Source: Phycisphaerales bacterium (lineage in GTDB: Bacteria; Planctomycetota; Phycisphaerae; Phycisphaerales; SM1A02). Taken from it: a stretch of DNA of 49,108 bases. Under the pieces are notes generated by a model. The model was not told the origin of the DNA and did no database searches. It worked only from the letters and a program-made list of their open reading frames with translations. Below are positions 5,660 to 20,635 of this stretch, in pieces; the stretch's first letter is position 1; each line of letters starts with the position of its first letter. A program made the translations under genes and the position numbers. The stretch is from positions 1-49,108 of the forward strand of contig JASMLR010000013.1 in NCBI GenBank assembly GCA_030748575.1, given 5' to 3'.

Positions 5660-5714
5660 CGCCGTATCGGTGTCTAGCGTGCTTGTTGCCAGCGGCGGCT
5701 TTGACGGCTTGTGA

Positions 5715-5936
5715 TTGCCAGAACACCGCGACACCGACCATCTCGAGACGGTCGGCGAGGACGCGGCCACGCTGGGTCCGGGCCAGTACCCCCCGCGCTT
5801 CCTGCAGGACTGGTCTGGCGGCGAGAGCACATTCACCCACATCCGCCTCAACTTCACCGGGGTCCCCGCCCCGGCCGCGTTGGCACTTCTGGGCGTCGCC
5901 GGGCTGGGCGGCCGGCATCGGAGGCGGCGTCGCTGA
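5715..5936 (+). pseudogene. Remnant of a PEP-CTERM-type secreted protein (C-terminus only)
   Basis: The frame opens directly after a TGA at 5712-5714, has no ATG before the relevant part and ends in TGA at 5934-5936. Its last residues read HIRLNFTGVPAPAALALLG, then VAGLGGRHRRRRR. This is the planctomycete form of a PEP-CTERM sorting tail: a short proline motif, a hydrophobic helix and an Arg cluster. The upstream 80 bases cannot hold the missing body of the protein, and no ribosome binding site is visible. I read it as the 3' end of a deleted gene. A very short functional gene is possible but less likely. Confidence 0.55.
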
Positions 5937-6061
5937 GGGGGCTTGCGACGCTGCCTCGCGGAACGGTCCCCGGTCCGATGTTTGCACGCGGACGCGGAGC
6001 ACGCTCCCCACGCCTGGTTCAGAGGTGGTCGCGCCGCAGCCAATCCCCCGAGGGCCTTCGC

Positions 6062-6067
6062 TACCAT
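6062..6067 (+). promoter_or_regulatory. Putative -10 box of nuoG (TACCAT)
   Basis: TACCAT preceded by GC, matching the TAnnnT boxes seen before other genes in this window. It lies 51 bases ahead of the nuoG ATG. The resulting leader contains the small inverted repeat GCGGC-gat-GCCGC. No -35 consensus was recognised. Confidence 0.4.
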
Positions 6068-6118
6068 GGGTCATTCCGCGGCGATGCCGCTGCGGCAATC
6101 AATGGCCTGAGACCCCCC

Positions 6119-7765
6119 ATGCCCACCTGCACCATCAACGACATCGTGTGTGAGTTCGAGGACGGCCAGACCATTCTTGAGGTCGCCAAGGCCAACGATC
6201 TGGAGATCCCGCATTACTGCTGGCATCCGGGTCTGTCGATCGCAGCCTCGTGCCGGATCTGCCTGGCCGAGGTCGCCGCGCCCAATCCTCGCAATGACGG
6301 CAAGATCGAGACGATCCCCAAACTCCTGCCTGCCTGCCAGACGCCGGCCGGCGACGGGCAGGTCATCACCACAACCAGCGAGAAGGCGGTCAAGAGTCAG
6401 CACTCCGTCATGGAACTGCTGCTTATCAACCACCCCGTCGACTGCCCGGTCTGCGACCAGGCCGGCGAATGCGGCCTGCAGGACTACGCCTATAAGTACG
6501 GCAGCGCATGCAGCCGCTTCGAAGAAGACAAGATCAAGCAGCCGAAAAAGGACATCGGCCCGCACGTGCTGCTCTACAGCGACCGCTGCATCATGTGCAC
6601 GCGGTGCGTCCGATTCACGCGTGAAGTCACCGGCACTGGTGAACTCATGATCGACGGCCGGGGCGCCACGGAATCCATCGACGTCTTTCCCGGAAAGGCG
6701 CTCGACAATCCGCTCAGTGGGTGTGTCGTCGACCTCTGCCCCGTCGGCGCCCTGCTCGACAAGGACTTCCTCTTCACGCAGCGGGTGTGGTTCCTCAAGT
6801 CCACGCCGTCGATCGACGGGCTCACGGCCTCGGGCGACAACATTCTCGTCGAACACAATCAGGGGGAGGTGTACCGCCTCAAGCCCCGCGAGAACATGGA
6901 CGTCAATCGCTGGTGGATGACCGATGAGGTGCGATACGGCTGGCACTTCATCAATGCCGAGAACCGAATCACCATCCCCGCCCTCCGCGGCGACGAAGCC
7001 TTCGATGATGACAGCGCAGACGAAGCCTGGGACGTCGCCGAAGCAGCTGCATTGGACGGGCTTCAGGATGCCGGGCACATCGCGGCGATCATCAGCCCGA
7101 TGCTCTCATGCGAGGATGCCTGGCATCTCGGGCAACTTGCCAGGGCCATCGACCCGCATGCCGTGCTGGCCGTTGGTCCGGTGCCGGTTGATGGGGAAGA
7201 TCAGACCATGCGCGACGGCTTCGTCATTCGCGCTGAAAAGGCGCCGAATGCCCGCGGGGTTCGCCGCGTCCTGGAAGCGATGGGCGGAGACGTCCTGGAT
7301 GCCGCCGGCCTGGAGCGGGCGCTCACCGATGACGCCTCGCTTGCCGGCGTCCTGGTGACCGGCAACTACCCAAGTCCATGGGTCACGCCCTCGCTTGAGC
7401 GCGCCATAGACGGCGGGCGATTCGTGGTTCAGCTTGACACGCTTCCCAACTCCCTGACGGACACCGCTGATGTCGTGCTCCCTGCCGCCACCTGGATGGA
7501 AAAGGCCGGGACCTTTGAGAGTGCCTCGGGCCGCCTGCAGACATTTCAACGAGCCATCGCGCCCAAGCACTGGTCCAAGGCGGAGGCGCAGATCGCGATC
7601 GATCTGCTGGCGCGACTTCGGGGTGAGTCACCCTGCCCATATTGTGATCAGGCAGCCCGCACCTCGATGGCAGACCATGGATTGACCTCGATGTCGCAGG
7701 ATGTGCATCAGCCGCCCGCGTGTGACGTGCAGGCTGAGAGCGATATGCACCTGATTGTGTTGTAG
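6119..7765 (+). CDS. nuoG: NADH-quinone oxidoreductase subunit G (NuoG, 75 kDa type)
   Basis: 548 residues. NuoG is the large iron-sulfur subunit of the peripheral arm of respiratory complex I. Its N-terminus shows all the expected cluster ligands. The [2Fe-2S] site uses Cys 34, 45, 48 and 73. The His-containing [4Fe-4S] site uses His 105 and Cys 109, 112 and 118 (HPVDCPVCDQAGECGLQDYA). The second [4Fe-4S] site uses CIMCTRC at 157-163 and Cys 207 in DLCPVG. The C-terminal half is the molybdopterin-oxidoreductase-like fold without cofactor (LPNSLTDTADVVLPAATWME). It is shorter than the E. coli protein (over 900 residues) but similar to compact NuoG forms. I chose the ATG at 6119 because the domain begins there; the frame continues open upstream without homology. 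It is separated by 13 kb from nuoD-E-F and has no complex I neighbour. Confidence 0.95.
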   Translation: MPTCTINDIVCEFEDGQTILEVAKANDLEIPHYCWHPGLSIAASCRICLAEVAAPNPRNDGKIETIPKLLPACQTPAGDGQVITTTSEKAVKSQHSVMELLLINHPVDCPVCDQAGECGLQDYAYKYGSACSRFEEDKIKQPKKDIGPHVLLYSDRCIMCTRCVRFTREVTGTGELMIDGRGATESIDVFPGKALDNPLSGCVVDLCPVGALLDKDFLFTQRVWFLKSTPSIDGLTASGDNILVEHNQGEVYRLKPRENMDVNRWWMTDEVRYGWHFINAENRITIPALRGDEAFDDDSADEAWDVAEAAALDGLQDAGHIAAIISPMLSCEDAWHLGQLARAIDPHAVLAVGPVPVDGEDQTMRDGFVIRAEKAPNARGVRRVLEAMGGDVLDAAGLERALTDDASLAGVLVTGNYPSPWVTPSLERAIDGGRFVVQLDTLPNSLTDTADVVLPAATWMEKAGTFESASGRLQTFQRAIAPKHWSKAEAQIAIDLLARLRGESPCPYCDQAARTSMADHGLTSMSQDVHQPPACDVQAESDMHLIVL

Positions 7766-12187: not shown

Positions 12188-14098
12188 TCACCCGAAGTAG
12201 GCGAGCATCAACAGCAGATCGTCCACGCCCACCTCACCGTCTCCGTTCAGGTCGGCCGGGCAGCCCCCGCACGAACCCCAGTGGGAGAGCAGAATCAGCA
12301 GATCGTCCACGCCGACCACGCCGTCGCCGTCCAGATCGCCAGGCGTGTCCTCGAATGGATCAATGTCAATCGACACAGCATCCATCACCACCGGCGGCGA
12401 CATGCCACGCGCGACATAGGCGTCCCACGCAATCTGGCCGCGGTTGTCGGTGACGTTGGCGTCCCTGAGGAACTCCATCAGGTCCCGGGTCGTCGTCTGG
12501 AAGTAGAGCGTCGTGACCGCCGTCTCCGCGTCAGCCGGGATCTCAAAGACCGTGTCCGACCAGTGCTGCCCATCGGCGTAATAGGCGCCGACCGGGGCCG
12601 CATGAATGGCCTCGAAGGCCGCGTTGGTGAAGCCGACGGGCGGGATGCGATTGTCGATCAGGTACTCGTCACAGAGCACCAAGTGGTAGGACTCGCCGGC
12701 CTCGACGCCGGTCAGGTCGGCCACCTCCTCCGATACGCCGAGCTTCGCTTCCCAAACCTGCGTGCTCGCTTCGTCAAGCGTGGCCGTCAGCCAGTTGTAT
12801 GCGCCCAGTTCCTCAATGGCCGCTCCGTCGCCATCGAGGTACTGCACGTTCAACCACATGCGGCGGCCTTCGGGCATCCCGGTGGGCAACTTGTGGCCCG
12901 ACCAGTTCGTGACGCGAATCTCAAGTTGGCCGCCGTTCTGCACCACATCCATGTCGCTGGCCGCGGCGAGCATGTCGGCGGTCCGCTGCATGGATCGGTC
13001 CACGATGTCGTCGGTGAGCGCGGTGTATTGGGGGTCGTACAGATCATGCACGGCACCGATCACCCAGGTATTGCCGCCGGCAAAGCTGTGAACGTCCAGA
13101 TCGTCCCGCGCCCCAATCTCCGGCAGGTACCAGAAACTGCAGTTTGCGCCGTGCGTCTTGGGCATATGGCAGTCCTGGCAGGACTTCATGACGCCGTCCG
13201 GGTGCCCGTCGCCGCCAAATCGGCCGTCGGGAAAGGCCACGCCATCTGCTGCGAACTCGCTGTTGAGCCACTCGCTGTAGGTCCGCTGCTCGGGGAACAT
13301 GTGATACGTGTTCTGCGTGGGGTGCGCCGCATCAAGGCTGTTGAGCTCGAACTTCTCGGTCGATTCGTTGTATGAGAAAACGGGGTTCCCCAGATCGTGG
13401 CACGGGCCGCAGATGCTCGCCTCCATGTGGTGGGGCGAGTACCAGATCTGCGACGCGCCGTGCATATTGATGCCGACGTCGTCGAGCGGCCCTCGACGAT
13501 CGTCCACCGGATCAAGAATGAACCGCCCGTTGCCCGGGAAGGCGGGGTCCGGGTACGTGCCCGCGTCCAGGAGCGACTGCAGGATGTCTTCATCCTGCGC
13601 CGGGTTGTCCATCGATGCGATGGGGTCCACCATTCGATGGCAGAAACTGCAGGTGATGCCGTCATAGTCATCCGGGGCCCAGAGGGCGTCCAGATCTCCG
13701 CCGCTGCTCCGCCCTTCCACCCAGCCCTTGGGCGAGTGGCAGCGGATGCAATACTCGCCCGCGCCGGCTGCGTCCTGATTGGCAATGACGACGGCGGCCT
13801 GCCAGACCGGGTCACGGACCGACTGGGCCATCATGGTGCCGGCCCAGTTGATGTGCGGCGATGTAATCTCGTCCGGGTTGTCGTCGTCTTCGAAGTTGTG
13901 GCAACTGAGGCAGTTCCAGGACTCGGTGAAGACCTGCAGGCCCTCCGGCTCCGGCTGGGTACCGGGCTGGTAGAAGTCGGCGGCCGTCGTCGGCACCTGC
14001 ACCTGGTCGGCCGTGGCAACGCCGGACAGCGGGATCACCATGCCGAAGGCTGCGACCCCTCGGGCCACACCCCGCATCACTCCGGTCTGCTGTTGCAC
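12188..14098 (-). CDS. Secreted pentaheme cytochrome c with C-terminal dockerin pair
   Basis: 636 residues from a GTG at 14098, chosen for its GAGGGAG site nine bases upstream; the ATG at 14077 has a poorly spaced site. A short signal peptide (hydrophobic core ending VATA before DQ) fits export. Five CxxCH heme-binding motifs occur: CLSCH 64-68, CIRCH 118-122, CSFCH 151-155, CGPCH 231-235 and CQDCH 308-312. Further His residues could be distal ligands. The central part has a GHKLPTGMPEGRR stretch typical of multiheme proteins of the cytochrome c554 or DmsE-like group. The C-terminus has two dockerin-type calcium loops: GDLDGDGVVGVDDLLILL, then a second ending LLLMLAYFG. It is probably a periplasmic or surface electron-transfer protein. 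The partner is unknown. A lipoprotein gene diverges from its upstream side. Confidence 0.9.
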   Translation of the reverse strand: MQQQTGVMRGVARGVAAFGMVIPLSGVATADQVQVPTTAADFYQPGTQPEPEGLQVFTESWNCLSCHNFEDDDNPDEITSPHINWAGTMMAQSVRDPVWQAAVVIANQDAAGAGEYCIRCHSPKGWVEGRSSGGDLDALWAPDDYDGITCSFCHRMVDPIASMDNPAQDEDILQSLLDAGTYPDPAFPGNGRFILDPVDDRRGPLDDVGINMHGASQIWYSPHHMEASICGPCHDLGNPVFSYNESTEKFELNSLDAAHPTQNTYHMFPEQRTYSEWLNSEFAADGVAFPDGRFGGDGHPDGVMKSCQDCHMPKTHGANCSFWYLPEIGARDDLDVHSFAGGNTWVIGAVHDLYDPQYTALTDDIVDRSMQRTADMLAAASDMDVVQNGGQLEIRVTNWSGHKLPTGMPEGRRMWLNVQYLDGDGAAIEELGAYNWLTATLDEASTQVWEAKLGVSEEVADLTGVEAGESYHLVLCDEYLIDNRIPPVGFTNAAFEAIHAAPVGAYYADGQHWSDTVFEIPADAETAVTTLYFQTTTRDLMEFLRDANVTDNRGQIAWDAYVARGMSPPVVMDAVSIDIDPFEDTPGDLDGDGVVGVDDLLILLSHWGSCGGCPADLNGDGEVGVDDLLLMLAYFG

Positions 14099-14225
14099 TG
14101 ATACACGCTCCCTCTTCGCCCGCTTCGCGGCCCGACGGTCTCCCAAAGGTCCCTTGAAGACGTTCAACCGTACTTGGGATCGGCCTCTGGTCAATACCGG
14201 ACCCACGAATCTGCTCACCAATGGG

Positions 14226-14231
14226 TAGACT
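14226..14231 (+). promoter_or_regulatory. -10 box (TAGACT) abutting the 14240 start
   Basis: TAGACT preceded by GG, ending eight bases before the ATG at 14240. No ribosome binding site lies between. This spacing implies transcription starting at or next to the A of the start codon. Confidence 0.55.
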
Positions 14232-14239
14232 CGGCCCGG

Positions 14240-14908
14240 ATGACCATTCGCTCCATCACGATCCTCGGATTCATCTGCTTTGCAACTGGCTGCTCGGCCC
14301 ATCGGGGCCCGGAGCTGGTGACCGTGCAGCCGGACCAGTATGAGGCCGCTTTTTCGACCGCGGTCGAACTGGTCAGAGCCGGCGGGTGGGAGCCCGAGTT
14401 CATGGACCGACGCAGCGGCGTCATCGAGTCGGGCCCGGTGCAGGCCGGATCGCTGCTGGAGCCCTGGCACCTCCAGACGGAGGACATGCCCACCATCGTC
14501 GAAAACACGCTTTCAAAGACCCGTACGCGGGTTCGCATCGAGTTTCGGCCCGCCAAAGAGGTCGCGCTGGCCCACACCGGACGGACCGACGTCGAGCCAG
14601 CCGACTTCCTCGGCACCAGAGACATGCCCGACCTCACCGCCTCGGATGGGCCGCTGGACCTGCGAGCCTGGGTATTCGTGGAGCATGGGCACCGGCCCGA
14701 CATCATGCGGAGTACCTGGATGCCCAGCCTGACCGCCAGCCCCCGCCGAACCGGCTTCGACAGCACGTGGGAGCAGCCCCCGAGCGGCGAATTCTGGATT
14801 CCGACCAGCCGCGACCGGTCGGCCGAGCGAAAGCTCCTGGGGGCGATCGAAGCGGCCATGCAGGCGGGCCAGCCCGCCCAGACCCCACCCCCGCGGGCCG
14901 CCGGATAG
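14240..14908 (+). CDS. Lipoprotein of unknown function
   Basis: 222 residues. The ATG at 14240 gives a short lipoprotein signal (ITILGFICFATGC, Cys 18). The mature part begins SAHRGPELVTVQPDQYEAAF, followed by A-V-E-L-V-R-A-G-G-W, which resembles the start of planctomycete lipoproteins that process variable-length data in an alpha/beta fold. A stretch with R-R-S-G-V-I-E-S-G-P may be a strand-turn. The C-terminus is Ala/Pro-rich. No catalytic residues are evident. The start is likely leaderless, because a TAGACT box ends eight bases before it. It diverges from the cytochrome gene over 141 bases. Confidence 0.8.
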   Translation: MTIRSITILGFICFATGCSAHRGPELVTVQPDQYEAAFSTAVELVRAGGWEPEFMDRRSGVIESGPVQAGSLLEPWHLQTEDMPTIVENTLSKTRTRVRIEFRPAKEVALAHTGRTDVEPADFLGTRDMPDLTASDGPLDLRAWVFVEHGHRPDIMRSTWMPSLTASPRRTGFDSTWEQPPSGEFWIPTSRDRSAERKLLGAIEAAMQAGQPAQTPPPRAAG

Positions 14909-14966: not shown

Positions 14967-15009
14967 GAAGCGTTGGTCTGTGCCAGGGGTGTGAGGAGTG
15001 CGATTCACG

Positions 15010-16557
15010 ATGCGAGGCGTCACAGCGGCGACGGCCGCTGCCATGCTGACAACAGCCTGCCTGGCCGACTACCGCGCGTGGATCGGCTGGGACGCGCTGG
15101 TCGAACGTATCGGGCTGGAGAACGTCCCGACCGGCGCGGACGTCATTGTCGGCCAGGTCGAGGCGGCCAACACCAACGGGTACTACGTGCCGGACGCAGC
15201 CAACGCCGAGTTTGACGGCAAGTACATCATCCGCCGATCGGGCGGGTCAGCCATGCCCTCCAGCCACGCCACGGGCGTCGGCAAACGGTTGTACGGTCTG
15301 GACACCAGCATCGCGCCGGGCGTCTGGTTCATCAACGTCTTTGAGGCCAACGACTGGGTTCAAGGCGGGTTTCTCAACGTCGGGGCCGGCCCGAGCACAC
15401 CCCCCGAGGACGCGATTGGCGCCCAGAAAGTCTGGAGCCACTCCTGGGTCGGATCATTTGGCAATGCCACCTACGACGTGGAAGCGCTTCGGCGACTGGA
15501 CTGGACCATCGAGCGTGACGACTCCGTGTACACGGTCGGGCTGAACAACGGCGGCGAGCAGATGCCGCTGCTGGCGTACGCCTACAACGCCATCAGCGTC
15601 GGACGCCGCGACGGTGACCACGCAGCCGGCGACGTCCCCGCTGGTTTCGAAGGCGAAGGCCGCATGATGCCCGACATCACCGGCCCCGAGTACACGACGA
15701 GCAACTCGACCCCCATCGTCGCCGCCTCCGTCGCGATGCTTGTCGAGATGGTGCGAACGGACGACACCCTGCACAGCGACGGTGAACAGCCTGAAGTGCT
15801 CAAGGCCGTGCTCATGGCGGCAGCCAGACACCAGGGCGTGGATGGCGCCGACTGGACAAACAACGCCCCGCAATCCGGGCCCGATCGTGGATGGACCGCC
15901 CGACCGTTGGATGAGTCGGTCGGCGCGGGACATCTGCATATCGACCACGCGCATGAAACGCTCTCGGGCGGCCGCGTCTCCCCCGCCGCCAACGCGCAGG
16001 CGGCCCCCTCGGCCGGCATGCACGGGTGGTCCTTCGAGCAGGCAGATGCCGATGATCAGATGTGGTGGCGGTTCACGCTCCCAGAGGGCGCGGCCAAGTT
16101 CGCGGTCTCGGCTGCCTGGAACCGCGTCGTTCCGTCCAACTTCGGTCAGGCCGCAGTCGCTGACTTCGACCTTGAACTCTTCACCGAAGTGGACGGCGCA
16201 GCGGTACCGCTCGTGGGCGATGACGTGGCCTTTGGCGGAGGCAATGTCGCCAGCGCCAGTGAAGTGGACAACGTCGAACACCTCTGGATCACCGACCTTG
16301 CAGCAGGCGACTACCTCCTGGTGGCCACACGCGTCGACGGCGGCGGGGATCCGGCGGCCGTGGCCCTGGCCTGGTGGAACAACGGCGACGCCCCGGACGT
16401 CCCCGGAGACCTCGATGGAGACGGGCTGGTCGGCGTCGATGACCTGTTGATTCTGTTGTCCCAGTGGGGCGACTGCGGGGGCTGCGCGGGTGATCTCGAC
16501 GGCGACTCCGTCGTTGGCGTCGACGATCTGCTTACCCTGATCGCCCTCTTCTCATGA
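15010..16557 (+). CDS. Secreted subtilase-like (S8 fold) protein with dockerin pair, first of two
   Basis: 515 residues. The ATG at 15010 has GAGGAG 11 bases upstream, and the short signal peptide ends near CLA before DYRAW. The body follows the order of a subtilisin-type serine protease. A strand VIVGQVEA carries Glu 51 where the family has its catalytic Asp. SSHATGVG carries His 86 at the catalytic His. GLNNGG (Asn 179-180) sits at the oxyanion Asn, followed by AYNAISVGRRDG. PDITGPEYTTSNSTPIVAAS carries Ser 231 at the catalytic Ser. LKAVLMAAA and GAGHLHIDHAH complete the fold. A jelly-roll-like C-terminal domain (DNVEHLWI) and a dockerin pair follow. Activity is uncertain because of Asp to Glu. 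The downstream gene overlaps by four bases (ATGA) and is a paralog. Confidence 0.85.
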   Translation: MRGVTAATAAAMLTTACLADYRAWIGWDALVERIGLENVPTGADVIVGQVEAANTNGYYVPDAANAEFDGKYIIRRSGGSAMPSSHATGVGKRLYGLDTSIAPGVWFINVFEANDWVQGGFLNVGAGPSTPPEDAIGAQKVWSHSWVGSFGNATYDVEALRRLDWTIERDDSVYTVGLNNGGEQMPLLAYAYNAISVGRRDGDHAAGDVPAGFEGEGRMMPDITGPEYTTSNSTPIVAASVAMLVEMVRTDDTLHSDGEQPEVLKAVLMAAARHQGVDGADWTNNAPQSGPDRGWTARPLDESVGAGHLHIDHAHETLSGGRVSPAANAQAAPSAGMHGWSFEQADADDQMWWRFTLPEGAAKFAVSAAWNRVVPSNFGQAAVADFDLELFTEVDGAAVPLVGDDVAFGGGNVASASEVDNVEHLWITDLAAGDYLLVATRVDGGGDPAAVALAWWNNGDAPDVPGDLDGDGLVGVDDLLILLSQWGDCGGCAGDLDGDSVVGVDDLLTLIALFS

Positions 16558-18119
16558 AACTGACTCTCCCTTTGATGTTGCTTGTCGCCACGGCTCCCGC
16601 CGCAGCAAACTACCGAGCGTGGTGCCATTGGGACGACCTGTTTGACCGCCTCGGCGGTGTGGTCCCGTCCGGATCGGAAGTGCACGCCGCGATCGTCGAG
16701 GCGGAGGACGGCGAGGGCAACTACGCCATCGATGAATGCACACCCTGGGCCTGCGACCCCGAGTTTGAAGGTCCGCTGGTCACGCACAAGTCCGGAAGCA
16801 GTGGCACATCGAACCACGCCCGGTCCGTCGGCAAGAAGTTCCTCGGCAACACCGACGGCATGGCACCCGACCTGAAACAGATCCAGTGTTTTGAACTTGA
16901 TGACTGGATTGGCGACGGGGGCCTGCACGTGGGTTTGAATGGTCAGCTCCCCACAGGCTCGGGGGCCGTCAAGGTGTGGAACCACTCGTGGGTCGGCGAC
17001 CTGGGCAACAACAACACCAATCGAGAAGCCCTTCGGCGCATGGACTGGATGGTCGCCCATCACTCGACCGACCCGATTGTCTGCGCTGGCCTCAACAACA
17101 GCGAGACGCAGTATCCCCTGCTGTACAACGCGTACAACGTGATTGCCGTCGGTCGTCGCGATGGCGCCCATTCATGGGGCGACGTGCAGTCACCGTTGGA
17201 CGGGGCCGGTCGGATGCGGCCGGACATCACCGGGCCGCTCTTCACAACCAGCCAGGCGACGGCGACCATCTCCGCGGCGGCCGCCGTGCTGGTCGACACC
17301 GTCCGGCTTGATGACGCGCTTCCGGAGACGGCCGAGTCGTCCGAAGTCATCAAGGCCGTGCTCATGGCCTCTGCCGACCACAGCGGCCAGAAGGACAACT
17401 CTGGCGACATCTGGAGCAATGAACCCGACGCGGACGGTCCCGATCGGGGTCGCACGTCCAGGCCGCTGGATCCGATCGTCGGCGCCGGCCATCTGGATGT
17501 GGACGCGGCCCATCGCGTGCTCACCGCGGGCTGGCAGCCCGGCGCCCCTGACACGGACGCCCCGGCCGACGCGCCCGTCGATGGCTGGTCGCTTGAGTCG
17601 ATGGCTGCCGGAGACGTGGTGCAGTGGCGGCTCGGCTGGCTGACGGAAACCGACTCGTTGTCGCTGGTTGCAACCTGGCACCGAACCGTCGAGACCAATT
17701 TCAACGTGACATCGGTTGCGGACTGCCGCCTGGAGATGCTCCGCGTCGCCGCGGGGAGCACCCACACGCTGGTCGGAACCGAGGCAGGCGAGGTCTTCGA
17801 CGCGGGCAACGTGGTCAGCGAGAGTTCCGTCGACAATGTCGAGCATCTCTATGTGGAAGGACTCCGGCCCGGGCACTACATCATCCGCCTCTCCCGTGAC
17901 GACCACGCCGAGGGCCAGGCGGATGTGGCCATTGCCTGGACCATTGATGGCGACCTCACGGACCCCGACCTCGACAACGATGGCGCCGTGGGCGTCCGCG
18001 ACCTGCTGGAATTGCTGCAGCAGTGGCCACTTTGCAATGCGTGTGACGCCGATCTGACCGGCGATGGGAATCTGGACCTCGATGATCTCATCATGCTGCT
18101 GCAGTTCTGGGGCACCTGA
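16554..18119 (+). CDS. Secreted subtilase-like (S8 fold) protein with dockerin pair, second of two
   Basis: 521 residues. The start ATG overlaps the TGA of the preceding paralog (ATGA), so translation is probably coupled; there is no separate ribosome binding site. A signal peptide ends at PAAA before NYRAW. It matches its neighbour along the whole length. The Asp position again holds Glu (Glu 49 in AAIVEAEDG). The His position is His 88 in SNHARSVGKK. The Asn position is 181-182 in GLNNSE, followed by NAYNVIAVGRRDG. The Ser position is Ser 233 in TTSQATATISAA. IKAVLMASADHSG and GAGHLDVDAAH follow. The final repeats are DLDNDGAVGVRDLLELL and DLTGDGNLDLDDLIMLL, a dockerin-type pair. It is likely an exported, calcium-bound protein; whether it cuts substrates is open. 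Confidence 0.85.
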   Translation: MKLTLPLMLLVATAPAAANYRAWCHWDDLFDRLGGVVPSGSEVHAAIVEAEDGEGNYAIDECTPWACDPEFEGPLVTHKSGSSGTSNHARSVGKKFLGNTDGMAPDLKQIQCFELDDWIGDGGLHVGLNGQLPTGSGAVKVWNHSWVGDLGNNNTNREALRRMDWMVAHHSTDPIVCAGLNNSETQYPLLYNAYNVIAVGRRDGAHSWGDVQSPLDGAGRMRPDITGPLFTTSQATATISAAAAVLVDTVRLDDALPETAESSEVIKAVLMASADHSGQKDNSGDIWSNEPDADGPDRGRTSRPLDPIVGAGHLDVDAAHRVLTAGWQPGAPDTDAPADAPVDGWSLESMAAGDVVQWRLGWLTETDSLSLVATWHRTVETNFNVTSVADCRLEMLRVAAGSTHTLVGTEAGEVFDAGNVVSESSVDNVEHLYVEGLRPGHYIIRLSRDDHAEGQADVAIAWTIDGDLTDPDLDNDGAVGVRDLLELLQQWPLCNACDADLTGDGNLDLDDLIMLLQFWGT

Positions 18120-18237: not shown

Positions 18238-19965
18238 ATGCGCCGCGCTCGCTTCGGCTCCTACCTCCTCATGGCTGCGGTTCTCGCCGGGTTCGCGCTG
18301 TTCCTGCTGTATCCCATCTGGCTCACCGTGTCGGTGGGATTCGAGAGCACCACCGGCGGATTCACGCTGCACCACGTCCTGGACGTACTCCGCGACCCGG
18401 CGACCCGGATCGGTCTGCTGAACGCGCTGGGCATCGCGGTCTGCACGACGATCGTCGCCATCGTCATCTCGATTCCACTGGCGCTCGTCTCGGTGAAGTG
18501 TGTCTTCCCCGGTAAAGCCGCCTTCAATGCTCTGGTTCTTGTGCCACTGATCCTGCCACCCTTTGTCGGCGCGATCGGGCTGCACCACCTGCTTGGCCGG
18601 CACGGCGCCATCAGCGAGTTGCTGATGTCGATCGGACTGGTCGATCAAGGCGTGGACTTCATCGGACAGGGCGGCTTCTGGGCGATCGTGCTCATCGAAG
18701 CCCTCCACCTGTATCCAATCATCTATCTGAACGCAGCCGCGGCGCTGGCGAACCTCGACCCAGCGCTCGAAGAGGCCGCGGCGGGTCTGGGCGCTTCGGC
18801 CTGGCGAAGGCTGCGGCAGATCGTCATGCCGCTGATCAGACCCGGGCTCTTCGCCGGCGGAACGATCGTGTTCATCTGGTCGTTCACCGAACTGGGCACG
18901 CCGCTCATGTTCGACTATCAGCAAGTCACGCCGGTGCAGATCTTCAACGGCATCAAGGAGATGGAGAGTTCCACGCAACCCTATGCCCTGACGGCCGTCC
19001 TCTTGATCGTGGCAGCCGGCATCTATGTCGTCGGCAAAGTGCTGCTGGGCGGACGGTCGAGCACGATGTACGCGAAGGCGTCCATTCGGGCAGTTCCGAA
19101 GAAACTGGGAGCCTGGGGGAGCGCCGGGGCGATTGCGCTGTTTGCGGGCGTCACATTCGCCGCCGTGCTGCCACACATCAGCGTGGTGCTCGCCTCGCTG
19201 GCAGTGGAGGGAAGTTGGTACGACAGCGTGCTGCCCACCCAGTGGACGGTACACAACTACGACACGGCACTCTCACACTCCCTCGCCAACGATTCCATCC
19301 GGAACAGTCTGCTGTACTCGTCGCTGGCGGTTGGCATCGATCTGATCGTCGGGCTTGCGATCGGTTATCTGATCGTTCGCGTCAAGGTCAGGGGCCGAGG
19401 ACTCGTCGACGCGCTTGCGATGCTCCCCCTTGCGGTGCCGGGGCTCGTCATGGCGTTCGGGTACGTCGCCATGACGCTCAGGTGGCCCTTCGGCAAGGAC
19501 GATCCACTTGAGGGCGTCATCTCGGTCGTGGGCGCCGACCCGAACCCGGTGCTGCTGCTCGTCATCGCGTACGCGGTTCGACGACTGCCCTACGTGGTCC
19601 GCTCCACCGTGGCCGGTCTGGAACAGACCAGTGGTGAGTTGGAAGAGGCAGCCCTCAATCTCGGCGCCTCCCGCGCCCGAGCGATCCGAACCGTGGTCAT
19701 CCCGCTCATTACGGCCAACCTGGTGGCCGGGGCCCTGCTTGCCTTCTCTTTTGCCATGCTCGAAGTCAGCGACTCGCTCATCCTCGCGCAGCGTGAGAGC
19801 GACTATCCGATCACCAAGGCGATCTACGTGCTCTTTGAGCGACTTGGCGACGGCCCTGGCATCGCCAGCGCGATGGGCGTCTGGGCGATGACCCTGCTTG
19901 CCGTGACCCTCGTCGGCGCCTCGGTGCTGATGGGACGCAAGATGGGCGCCATCTTCCGCGTCTGA
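18238..19965 (+). CDS. Fused two-domain ABC transporter permease (iron(III)/FbpB type)
   Basis: 575 residues with about twelve membrane spans. Two copies of the binding-protein-dependent permease domain are joined. Each carries the EAA loop that contacts the ATPase: EEAAAGLGASAWRRLRQIVM near residue 181, and EEAALNLGASRARAIRTVVI near residue 470. Fused permeases of this kind (FbpB, AfuB, SfuB family) import ferric iron or, in some relatives, phosphonates or thiamine. The substrate cannot be assigned because no substrate-binding protein or ATPase gene is next to it. The start is leaderless-looking, with a TACCAT box seven bases ahead. The gene is flanked by the subtilase pair and a Cys-rich protein, so its partners must be elsewhere in the genome. 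Confidence 0.9.
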   Translation: MRRARFGSYLLMAAVLAGFALFLLYPIWLTVSVGFESTTGGFTLHHVLDVLRDPATRIGLLNALGIAVCTTIVAIVISIPLALVSVKCVFPGKAAFNALVLVPLILPPFVGAIGLHHLLGRHGAISELLMSIGLVDQGVDFIGQGGFWAIVLIEALHLYPIIYLNAAAALANLDPALEEAAAGLGASAWRRLRQIVMPLIRPGLFAGGTIVFIWSFTELGTPLMFDYQQVTPVQIFNGIKEMESSTQPYALTAVLLIVAAGIYVVGKVLLGGRSSTMYAKASIRAVPKKLGAWGSAGAIALFAGVTFAAVLPHISVVLASLAVEGSWYDSVLPTQWTVHNYDTALSHSLANDSIRNSLLYSSLAVGIDLIVGLAIGYLIVRVKVRGRGLVDALAMLPLAVPGLVMAFGYVAMTLRWPFGKDDPLEGVISVVGADPNPVLLLVIAYAVRRLPYVVRSTVAGLEQTSGELEEAALNLGASRARAIRTVVIPLITANLVAGALLAFSFAMLEVSDSLILAQRESDYPITKAIYVLFERLGDGPGIASAMGVWAMTLLAVTLVGASVLMGRKMGAIFRV

Positions 19966-20017: not shown

Positions 20018-20062
20018 CCGCTGCATCGGCGATGGTGCCGTGTCTTGACGAAAGGACAACCA

Positions 20063-20635
20063 ATGTTGCTGAATGCCATGATGCTGGTCACGAGTCTGGC
20101 CCTGCCAGCCCCACTGCCATCGCCCGCTGTGCTGCCGGCGCCTGTCACGATTCACCAGATGCATGAGCAGCCACTGGACATCGCGTTGGCGTGGCACACC
20201 CCCGCCGACGGTTCCTCGGCCCTGGCTCCACCGCTCGACATCGTGACCTACGCATGGTCTGACGCGTCGAATTACCACACCGGAACCGCCGGCATGGGCG
20301 ATCGGATCATCATGGGGACGCTCAGCAACAGCGGCGAGCATGCCATCCACGTGGTGGACGCCGACGGCGGCATCATCACCCTGGCCGCAGGCGAGAATCT
20401 CTGGGTCGGCCCCCCGCGATCTCTGGACCCCACACACCAGTGCGCCTGCAGGTGCGAGTGTGCTGGTGGCAACAAGTCAACCCGCTTTGTCGTGCCGTGT
20501 GATAGCACCGGTGGCTGCTCCATGGAGGGCAGCGAGTGCGAACTCCCGTCCGATGACTACCTCGAGCCGACGGGAGTGGTCCGGACCTGCCGCCGCATCT
20601 GGGTCTGGTTGCCGCCCCAACCACAGGACGGGTAG
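20063..20635 (+). CDS. Secreted Cys-rich protein of unknown function
   Basis: 190 residues. The ATG at 20063 follows AAAGGA with six bases between. A signal peptide (MLLNAMMLVTSLALPAPLPS...) covers about residues 1-25. The middle (residues about 60-120) contains beta-like strands: GDRIIMGTLSNSGEHAIHVV and then DADGGIITLAAGENLWVG. From about residue 130 comes a Cys cluster: CACRCECAGG, VPCDSTGGC, SECELP and TCRR, with nine Cys in roughly 55 residues. These probably form disulfides or a metal site outside the cytoplasm. No known domain was recognised. It is followed directly by the nuoD gene, which has its own promoter-like box. Confidence 0.7.
   Translation: MLLNAMMLVTSLALPAPLPSPAVLPAPVTIHQMHEQPLDIALAWHTPADGSSALAPPLDIVTYAWSDASNYHTGTAGMGDRIIMGTLSNSGEHAIHVVDADGGIITLAAGENLWVGPPRSLDPTHQCACRCECAGGNKSTRFVVPCDSTGGCSMEGSECELPSDDYLEPTGVVRTCRRIWVWLPPQPQDG

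Follow-up and report, generated by a model that had tools for sequence, protein, structure and literature searches.

Two overlapping genes, here called A and B, lie on the forward strand of a contig from a Phycisphaerales bacterium (JASMLR010000013.1, assembly GCA_030748575.1, positions 1 to 49,108; this whole stretch of 49,108 nucleotides is referred to as the window). Judging from their sequences and predicted models, they very probably encode active secreted serine endoproteases with the subtilisin fold and a Glu-His-Ser catalytic set. Sequence comparison and modelling together show the fold, the positions of the active-site residues and the strict conservation of the Glu, the His, the oxyanion Asn and the Ser. 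The Glu-His-Ser (E-H-S) arrangement is already known and, since this set, including the protease SprP, has been described before, A and B are best regarded as a planctomycetal branch of a known kind, KP-43-like in architecture. The two genes and the codons of their active-site residues are as follows.

15010..16557, + strand: coding sequence A, predicted secreted Glu-His-Ser subtilase of 515 amino acids from ATG 15010 (open reading frame, comparison with its paralog, model).
16554..18119, + strand: coding sequence B, predicted secreted Glu-His-Ser subtilase of 521 amino acids; it shares its first 4 bases (ATGA) with the end of A.
15160..15162, + strand: codon of Glu51 of A, replacing the catalytic Asp (family conservation).
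15265..15267, + strand: codon of the predicted catalytic His86 of A (family conservation).
15547..15549, + strand: codon of the probable oxyanion Asn180 of A (family conservation).
15700..15702, + strand: codon of the predicted catalytic Ser231 of A (family conservation).
16698..16700, + strand: codon of Glu49 of B, replacing the catalytic Asp (conservation, profile alignment).
16815..16817, + strand: codon of the predicted catalytic His88 of B (conservation, profile alignment).
17097..17099, + strand: codon of the probable oxyanion Asn182 of B (conservation).
17250..17252, + strand: codon of the predicted catalytic Ser233 of B (conservation, profile alignment).

Relatives were collected by scanning a genome collection with two motifs free of the active-site Glu, VDN[VL]EHL[YFW] and GR[MT][KRM]P[ED][IL][VT][AGV]P, taken from an 8-row subset because a 25-row alignment was too diverse for a contig scan. 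The scan returned 550 stretches and 182 relatives, the best 80 of which, one protein per locus, form together with A and B the family of 82 proteins considered here. The Glu, the His, the Asn corresponding to Asn182 of B and the Ser are each present in 82/82, a pattern far outside what chance would give, and the Ala following the His is likewise present in 82/82. A wider set of 25 rows, consisting of A, B and 23 rows from genomes of the phylum, has the Glu, the His and the Ser in 25/25 and the Asn in 23/25; omitted from it were L034 and L040 (both with Glu), L033 and L036 (both with Cys) and L035, which stops short of the site. All but three of the 80 relatives come from records with planctomycetal titles; L067 and L073 are titled 'uncultured bacterium', and L100, a metagenome bin, bears the name Chitinophaga pinensis. 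Within the phylum, relatives were found in 26 of 392 genomes by a single-sequence search and in 38 of 384 by a profile search, the own genome being included in both counts. Among viral contigs 24 stretches fit one of the patterns and none is a relative, and plasmids gave no relative at 1e-5. The branch of L040 is thinly sampled, as a search with its domain matched only 7 of 294 genomes, mostly in part.

An earlier note made from the sequence alone claimed that in A and B alike the Glu stands where the catalytic Asp is expected. This agrees with the conservation throughout the family and with a profile-profile alignment in which the 82 family rows were set against 27 Asp-type subtilases from the same order (L150, L152, L153 and L155 being left out of 31). 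That alignment sets E49 of B on the Asp, H88 on the His and S233 on the Ser, with a probability of 99.2 and an E-value of 3.7e-19. The residue numbers given in the note, E51 in A (counted from ATG 15010) and E49 in B, are correct, and the landmarks it listed for two overlapping paralogs (PSSHA and TSNHA, GLNNG and GLNNS, TTSNST and TTSQAT, LMA, GAGHL) are all found. Over the 82 proteins the Glu-His spacing is 32-40 residues, the His-Asn spacing 87-101 and the Asn-Ser spacing 51-53; the Asp-His spacing of subtilisin BPN' is 32, so the first of these ranges fits a subtilase. The Asn-Asn pair noted at the oxyanion site is present, and the functional residue is most likely the second of the two, N182 of B, since it is conserved in 82/82 and N181 in only 66/82; the profile alignment itself sets N181 on the canonical oxyanion Asn. 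In the GTS motif the Gly is replaced by Thr in both A and B, and neither has a GTSMA motif.

It could be supposed that another Asp is the catalytic acid and that the Glu is structural. The acidic residues were examined for this in the 63-row alignment behind the model of B, which includes 58 of the 80 loci, the remainder having been left out partly as near-copies. Residues 49, 164, 216, 248, 306, 427 and 430 of B are acidic in at least 85% of the rows, and only E49 and D164 are invariant, so that Asp164 (63/63) is the one candidate as strictly kept as the Glu. The profile alignment, however, sets E49 and not D164 on the catalytic Asp, and the Glu-His spacing suits the Asp-His spacing of subtilases. 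D164 is residue 145 of the model and lies within a helix (model residues 134-150) that is expected to lie away from the site. A different Asp in the site, which would have overturned the claim of the earlier note, is thus found neither in the sequence and the profile nor in the secondary structure of the model, and we regard this alternative as highly improbable.

The predicted structures place the active-site residues in a two-domain protein, the parts of which are the following.

15061..15975, + strand: predicted subtilase catalytic domain of A (AlphaFold model residues 1-305; boundary approximate, as deduced from the model).
16021..16380, + strand: predicted C-terminal beta-barrel of A, KP-43-like (model strands; profile match of both domains).
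16611..17540, + strand: predicted subtilase catalytic domain of B (AlphaFold model residues 1-310; boundary likewise deduced).
17583..17948, + strand: predicted C-terminal beta-barrel of B, KP-43-like (model strands; profile and structure matches).

The AlphaFold models have a predicted local distance difference test score (pLDDT) of 95.6 for A and 94.7 for B and a predicted template modelling score (pTM) of 0.95 for each; in both, strand 1 finishes at the Glu (model residue 34 in A, 30 in B), and two helices have the His (69 in each model) and the Ser (214 in each), respectively, in second position. The PDB structure search was made with the model of B, and the fold of A was read from its own AlphaFold model. 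The closest solved structure to B is KP-43 (1wmd), with a Z-score of 34.5 and a root-mean-square deviation of 2.4 over 349 aligned residues, followed by SubHal (5fax) with a Z-score of 34.4; both matches span model residues 1-445 and hence both domains. A profile of 25 relatives run against the PDB likewise has SubHal and KP-43 at the top (E about 1e-15), covering the catalytic domain and the C-terminal beta-barrel. The S8 fold, whose absence the earlier note had named as a refutation, is therefore predicted from two sides. A PDB search with the sequence of A alone gave two chains that bear dockerins and a TraO chain at E 1.2, and these matches were set aside. Among the 63 domains of the family, Pfam Peptidase_S8 matches 36 at E up to 0.01 (best 2.5e-12), and an NCBIfam scan gave weak matches only, to the IteS anti-phage peptidase for 9 domains (best E 2.3e-4) and to mycosin for 2.

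Ordinary subtilases of the same order were taken from 33 loci, 4 in the own genome and 29 in others, and 31 of these give an open reading frame with a GTS motif (L142 and L146 do not). In a MAFFT alignment of the 31 the acid position holds Asp in 29, Glu in 1 (L153) and Ser in 1 (L155, also without the His); all four own-genome proteins have Asp. The question of Asp or Glu among relatives, raised in the earlier note, is answered accordingly: Glu throughout the family, mostly Asp in the ordinary subtilases. L150 (VGVFEALDNG), counted among the 29, would have Glu at the position if aligned without a gap, and a gap brings its Asp into register; this KP-43-like protein sits within the Asp rows of the tree (99/97) and perhaps represents an independent Asp-to-Glu change. 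The tree of the KP-43-like clan was built from 54 rows picked by hand, 36 with Glu, 10 with Asp, 4 with Cys and 4 with Ser, and it needs three changes for Glu: one for the main Glu set, which includes the family of A and B, one for the Glu row L202 and one for L150. These sequences are compatible with the main Glu group having arisen once, and no more than that, given the low support of the deepest split (24/39), the midpoint root and the very long branches of three rows.

Several observations weigh against A and B being active proteases. Pfam Peptidase_S8 scores 14.1 bits for A and 16.8 for B, under its cut-off of 21.8. The counts of 82/82 speak for the family near A and B, as the 80 relatives are the best-scoring ones, and the oxyanion Asn is missing in L022, L039 and L185. 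A measured activity for any member of the family was not found in the literature. A sister clade from the same class (L186, L188, L190, L191 and L192), standing beside the Glu row L202 with a support of 100/99, has Cys at the acid position (AAVCRS or ASICRS); by eye the His, the Asn and the Ser are kept, L190 being outside the tree, and a Cys-His-Ser or an inactive form is possible. Another clade (L197, L198, L199, L200 and L201) has Ser at this position (GVLSQ, AMLSSG or GFLSVD), again with the His, the Asn and the Ser kept by eye, L197 being outside the tree. Given the few proteins that lack the oxyanion Asn and the Cys or Ser that stands for the acid in sister clades, the wider clan may include inactive parts.

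The low Pfam scores, the Thr in place of the Gly of the GTS motif and the Cys or Ser of the sister clades would suit pseudoproteases, in which the fold is kept for binding and the Glu is a by-product of lost catalysis. Against this stands the conservation of the Glu, the His, the Asn and the Ser, for a non-catalytic fold would not need the Ser and the His, and one subtilase that has been placed in the Glu-His-Ser set is active. This is SprP (PA1242) of Pseudomonas aeruginosa, with the residues E262, H299 and S499, which the available text of PMC3937732 puts in the 'E-H-S family of subtilases', citing Siezen et al. (2007, Proteins 67:681). According to the same text SprP expressed in E. coli is able to clear skim milk and to cleave Suc-AAPF-pNA, and the S499A variant shows no protease activity. 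With the Glu conserved as strictly as the His and the Ser and with SprP active, decay or mere binding is unlikely, and the 'weakened protease' and 'binding protein' proposed in the earlier note are unsupported. Its third option, a specialised acidic variant, is unsupported as well, the pH optimum of SprP being given as 7-8 in the part of PMC4618607 at hand.

A and B match the Glu-His-Ser kind in that a Glu takes the Asp position and the His and the Ser are kept. SprP, the sole characterised Glu-His-Ser subtilase that turned up in the literature, is like them in having Glu, His and Ser in subtilisin order with Glu for Asp, a likeness that concerns the residue arrangement only. As far as its published description was available, it differs in carrying an N-terminal domain of 233 residues of unknown function, where no more than 55 codons precede the Glu in A and no more than 68 in B; A and B in turn have a KP-43-like barrel and a dockerin-like tail, unlike SprP. 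KP-43, with Asp30 as catalytic acid and an N-terminal propeptide, shares with SubHal and with A and B the order of a catalytic domain followed by a C-terminal beta-barrel; A and B depart from it in the Glu for Asp, in the lack of room for a propeptide and in the lack of a GTSMA motif. Compared with ordinary S8 proteases (Asp-His-Ser) they keep the fold, the His, the Asn and the Ser but not the catalytic Asp. The S53 sedolisins have a Glu-Asp-Ser triad in which Glu replaces His, and are thus like A and B in having a Glu in the active site, whereas A and B, with the rest of the family (82/82), have kept the His. These sedolisins belong to the same clan as S8, as stated in the accessible part of PMC9549277, and in what was available of that paper and of PMC11593635 only the Asp-His-Ser and S53 triads are named.

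Secreted subtilases are thought to need a propeptide for folding. Only 55 codons separate the upstream in-frame stop from the Glu in A, and only 68 do so in B, which leaves no room for a classical propeptide after the signal peptide; in the structural alignment with 1wmd, residue 1 of the model of B falls on residue 4. Across the family the codons before the Glu number at most 76 in 47/82 and at most 107 in 69/82, and 13/82 have at least 112 open codons upstream, translated or perhaps untranslated. The missing propeptide would be uncommon, since AspA is named in the available text of PMC9549277 as one of two propeptide-less subtilases.

A and B are paralogs with 44% identity (221/498 columns). 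The mechanical open reading frame of A opens at GTG 14998; this codon overlaps a GAGGAG that lies upstream of ATG 15010, and the ATG is therefore the favoured start.

14993..14998, + strand: GAGGAG, read directly, the probable ribosome-binding site of A, 11 bases before ATG 15010.

The start of B sits within the stop of A in the ATGA at 16554-16557, and a 1- or 4-base overlap recurs in four tandem relatives, which upholds the earlier proposal that the translation of A and B is coupled. A tandem second copy adjoins the first in 4 of the 80 loci (L041, L042, L044 and L045; an open-reading-frame count within the DNA around each locus), the overlap being 4 bases in L042 (ATGA), L044 (ATGA) and L045 (GTGA), as in the window, and 1 base in L041 (TGATG). 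In a tree, A falls together with the leading gene of L041 and B with the trailing one, each with a support of 100/100, and L044 and L045 match gene for gene in like order (98/98 and 100/100). These matching groupings suggest that the pair has been kept as a pair at least among close relatives; a single clade of all first genes is unsupported by this tree.

Behind the barrel each protein ends in a dockerin-like domain of the GC type, given here with its score in the whole-genome search with NCBIfam dockerin_GC.

16405..16554, + strand: C-terminal dockerin-like domain of A, GC type, below cut-off (21.8 bits, cut-off 29).
17964..18110, + strand: C-terminal dockerin-like domain of B, GC type (29.0 bits, marked over the cut-off of 29).

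In the single-protein scan the same model gave 15.9 bits for A and 25.1 for B, and Pfam Dockerin_1 is absent among the Pfam matches of both. Two repeats are visible in each tail, so of the dockerin pairs described earlier the dockerin ends stand, weakly, as one two-repeat domain per protein and not as a pair. By a loose motif count 71/82 family members have such tails, one of them cut by a contig end; the other 11/82 (L063, L066, L069, L078, L079, L082, L091, L092, L106, L114 and L118) have another C-terminal module, which contains an FWFRD-type motif and closes with FC followed by F, Y or R. The frequency of the tails, and the 'planctosome' proposed in other planctomycetes (available part of PMC6461901), might suggest a dockerin-built proteolytic machine in which A and B dock on a cohesin scaffold. 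This is quite unlikely: cohesin PF00963 has no match in the own genome at E up to 10 (in an assembly of 97% completeness, and with a model that can overlook distant cohesins), the GC-type dockerin model matches the same genome at 47 places with E up to 0.01, of which 11 exceed the cut-off, a neighbouring protein has a similar tail, and the 11 relatives do with a different module. The many dockerin places, the lack of a cohesin match and the tailed neighbour fit better with the GC-type tail of A and B being, as is probable, a general sorting or anchoring tag. The neighbour in question, at 12188-14470 on the reverse strand of the window, is a multihaem cytochrome-like protein with a weak dockerin-like tail (20.0 bits), and a relative of it lies upstream on the opposite strand in 16/80 loci.

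Downstream of B lies a transporter gene that recurs beside the subtilase gene.

18238..19965, + strand: fused ATP-binding cassette (ABC) transporter permease with two BPD_transp_1 stretches (Pfam), conserved downstream neighbour of the subtilase gene.

A fused ABC permease is found downstream on the same strand in 55/80 loci, in 52 of those within 143 bases; 18/80 loci are without it and 7/80 have too little sequence. The permease of the window weakly resembles molybdate, phosphonate and sulfate permeases, and none is over cut-off among 25 of its 37 NCBIfam matches. No ABC ATPase or binding-protein domain was found among the neighbours scanned with Pfam (window 895-27747; L058, L103 and L108). 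The link between subtilase and permease is to be taken as a lead and not as a function. It is also worth recording that in L087 an IS200-type transposase gene (Y1_Tnp, 5681-6313) lies between the subtilase and permease genes. In the window a small, probably secreted protein with a Cys-rich stretch is encoded at 20045-20635 on the forward strand, between the permease gene and nuoD, and it has no Pfam or NCBIfam match.

If A and B work as subtilases do, the carboxylate of the Glu would hold and polarise the His, as Asp does in subtilisin, the His would activate the Ser for attack on the peptide bond, and the Asn would stabilise the oxyanion. Both proteins would leave the cytoplasm by an N-terminal signal peptide and fold without a classical propeptide, perhaps aided by the C-terminal beta-barrel, and the GC-type dockerin-like tail may retain them at the envelope or sort them. 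The 4-base overlap would supply A and B in a fixed ratio, suited to the same substrates or to sequential action, and they may act next to the co-oriented ABC permease. A tentative wider picture is that of a large planctomycetal clade of secreted subtilases in which the acid was exchanged for Glu and the propeptide dispensed with, in which sister branches went on to Cys or Ser, and which, retained beside an ABC permease gene, perhaps serves as a dedicated envelope protease of an uptake system.

The Glu itself will be no surprise to specialists aware of the 2007 survey. What is gained is that an odd protease pair becomes a well-sampled family with conserved catalytic positions, which supplies many natural Glu-His-Ser subtilases for study and raises two side questions open to direct test, one on the folding of a secreted subtilase that lacks a propeptide and one on the activity of the Cys and Ser versions in the sister clades. 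If the wider picture is true, the third residue of the subtilisin triad would be evolvable within one clan, with the intermediates at hand.

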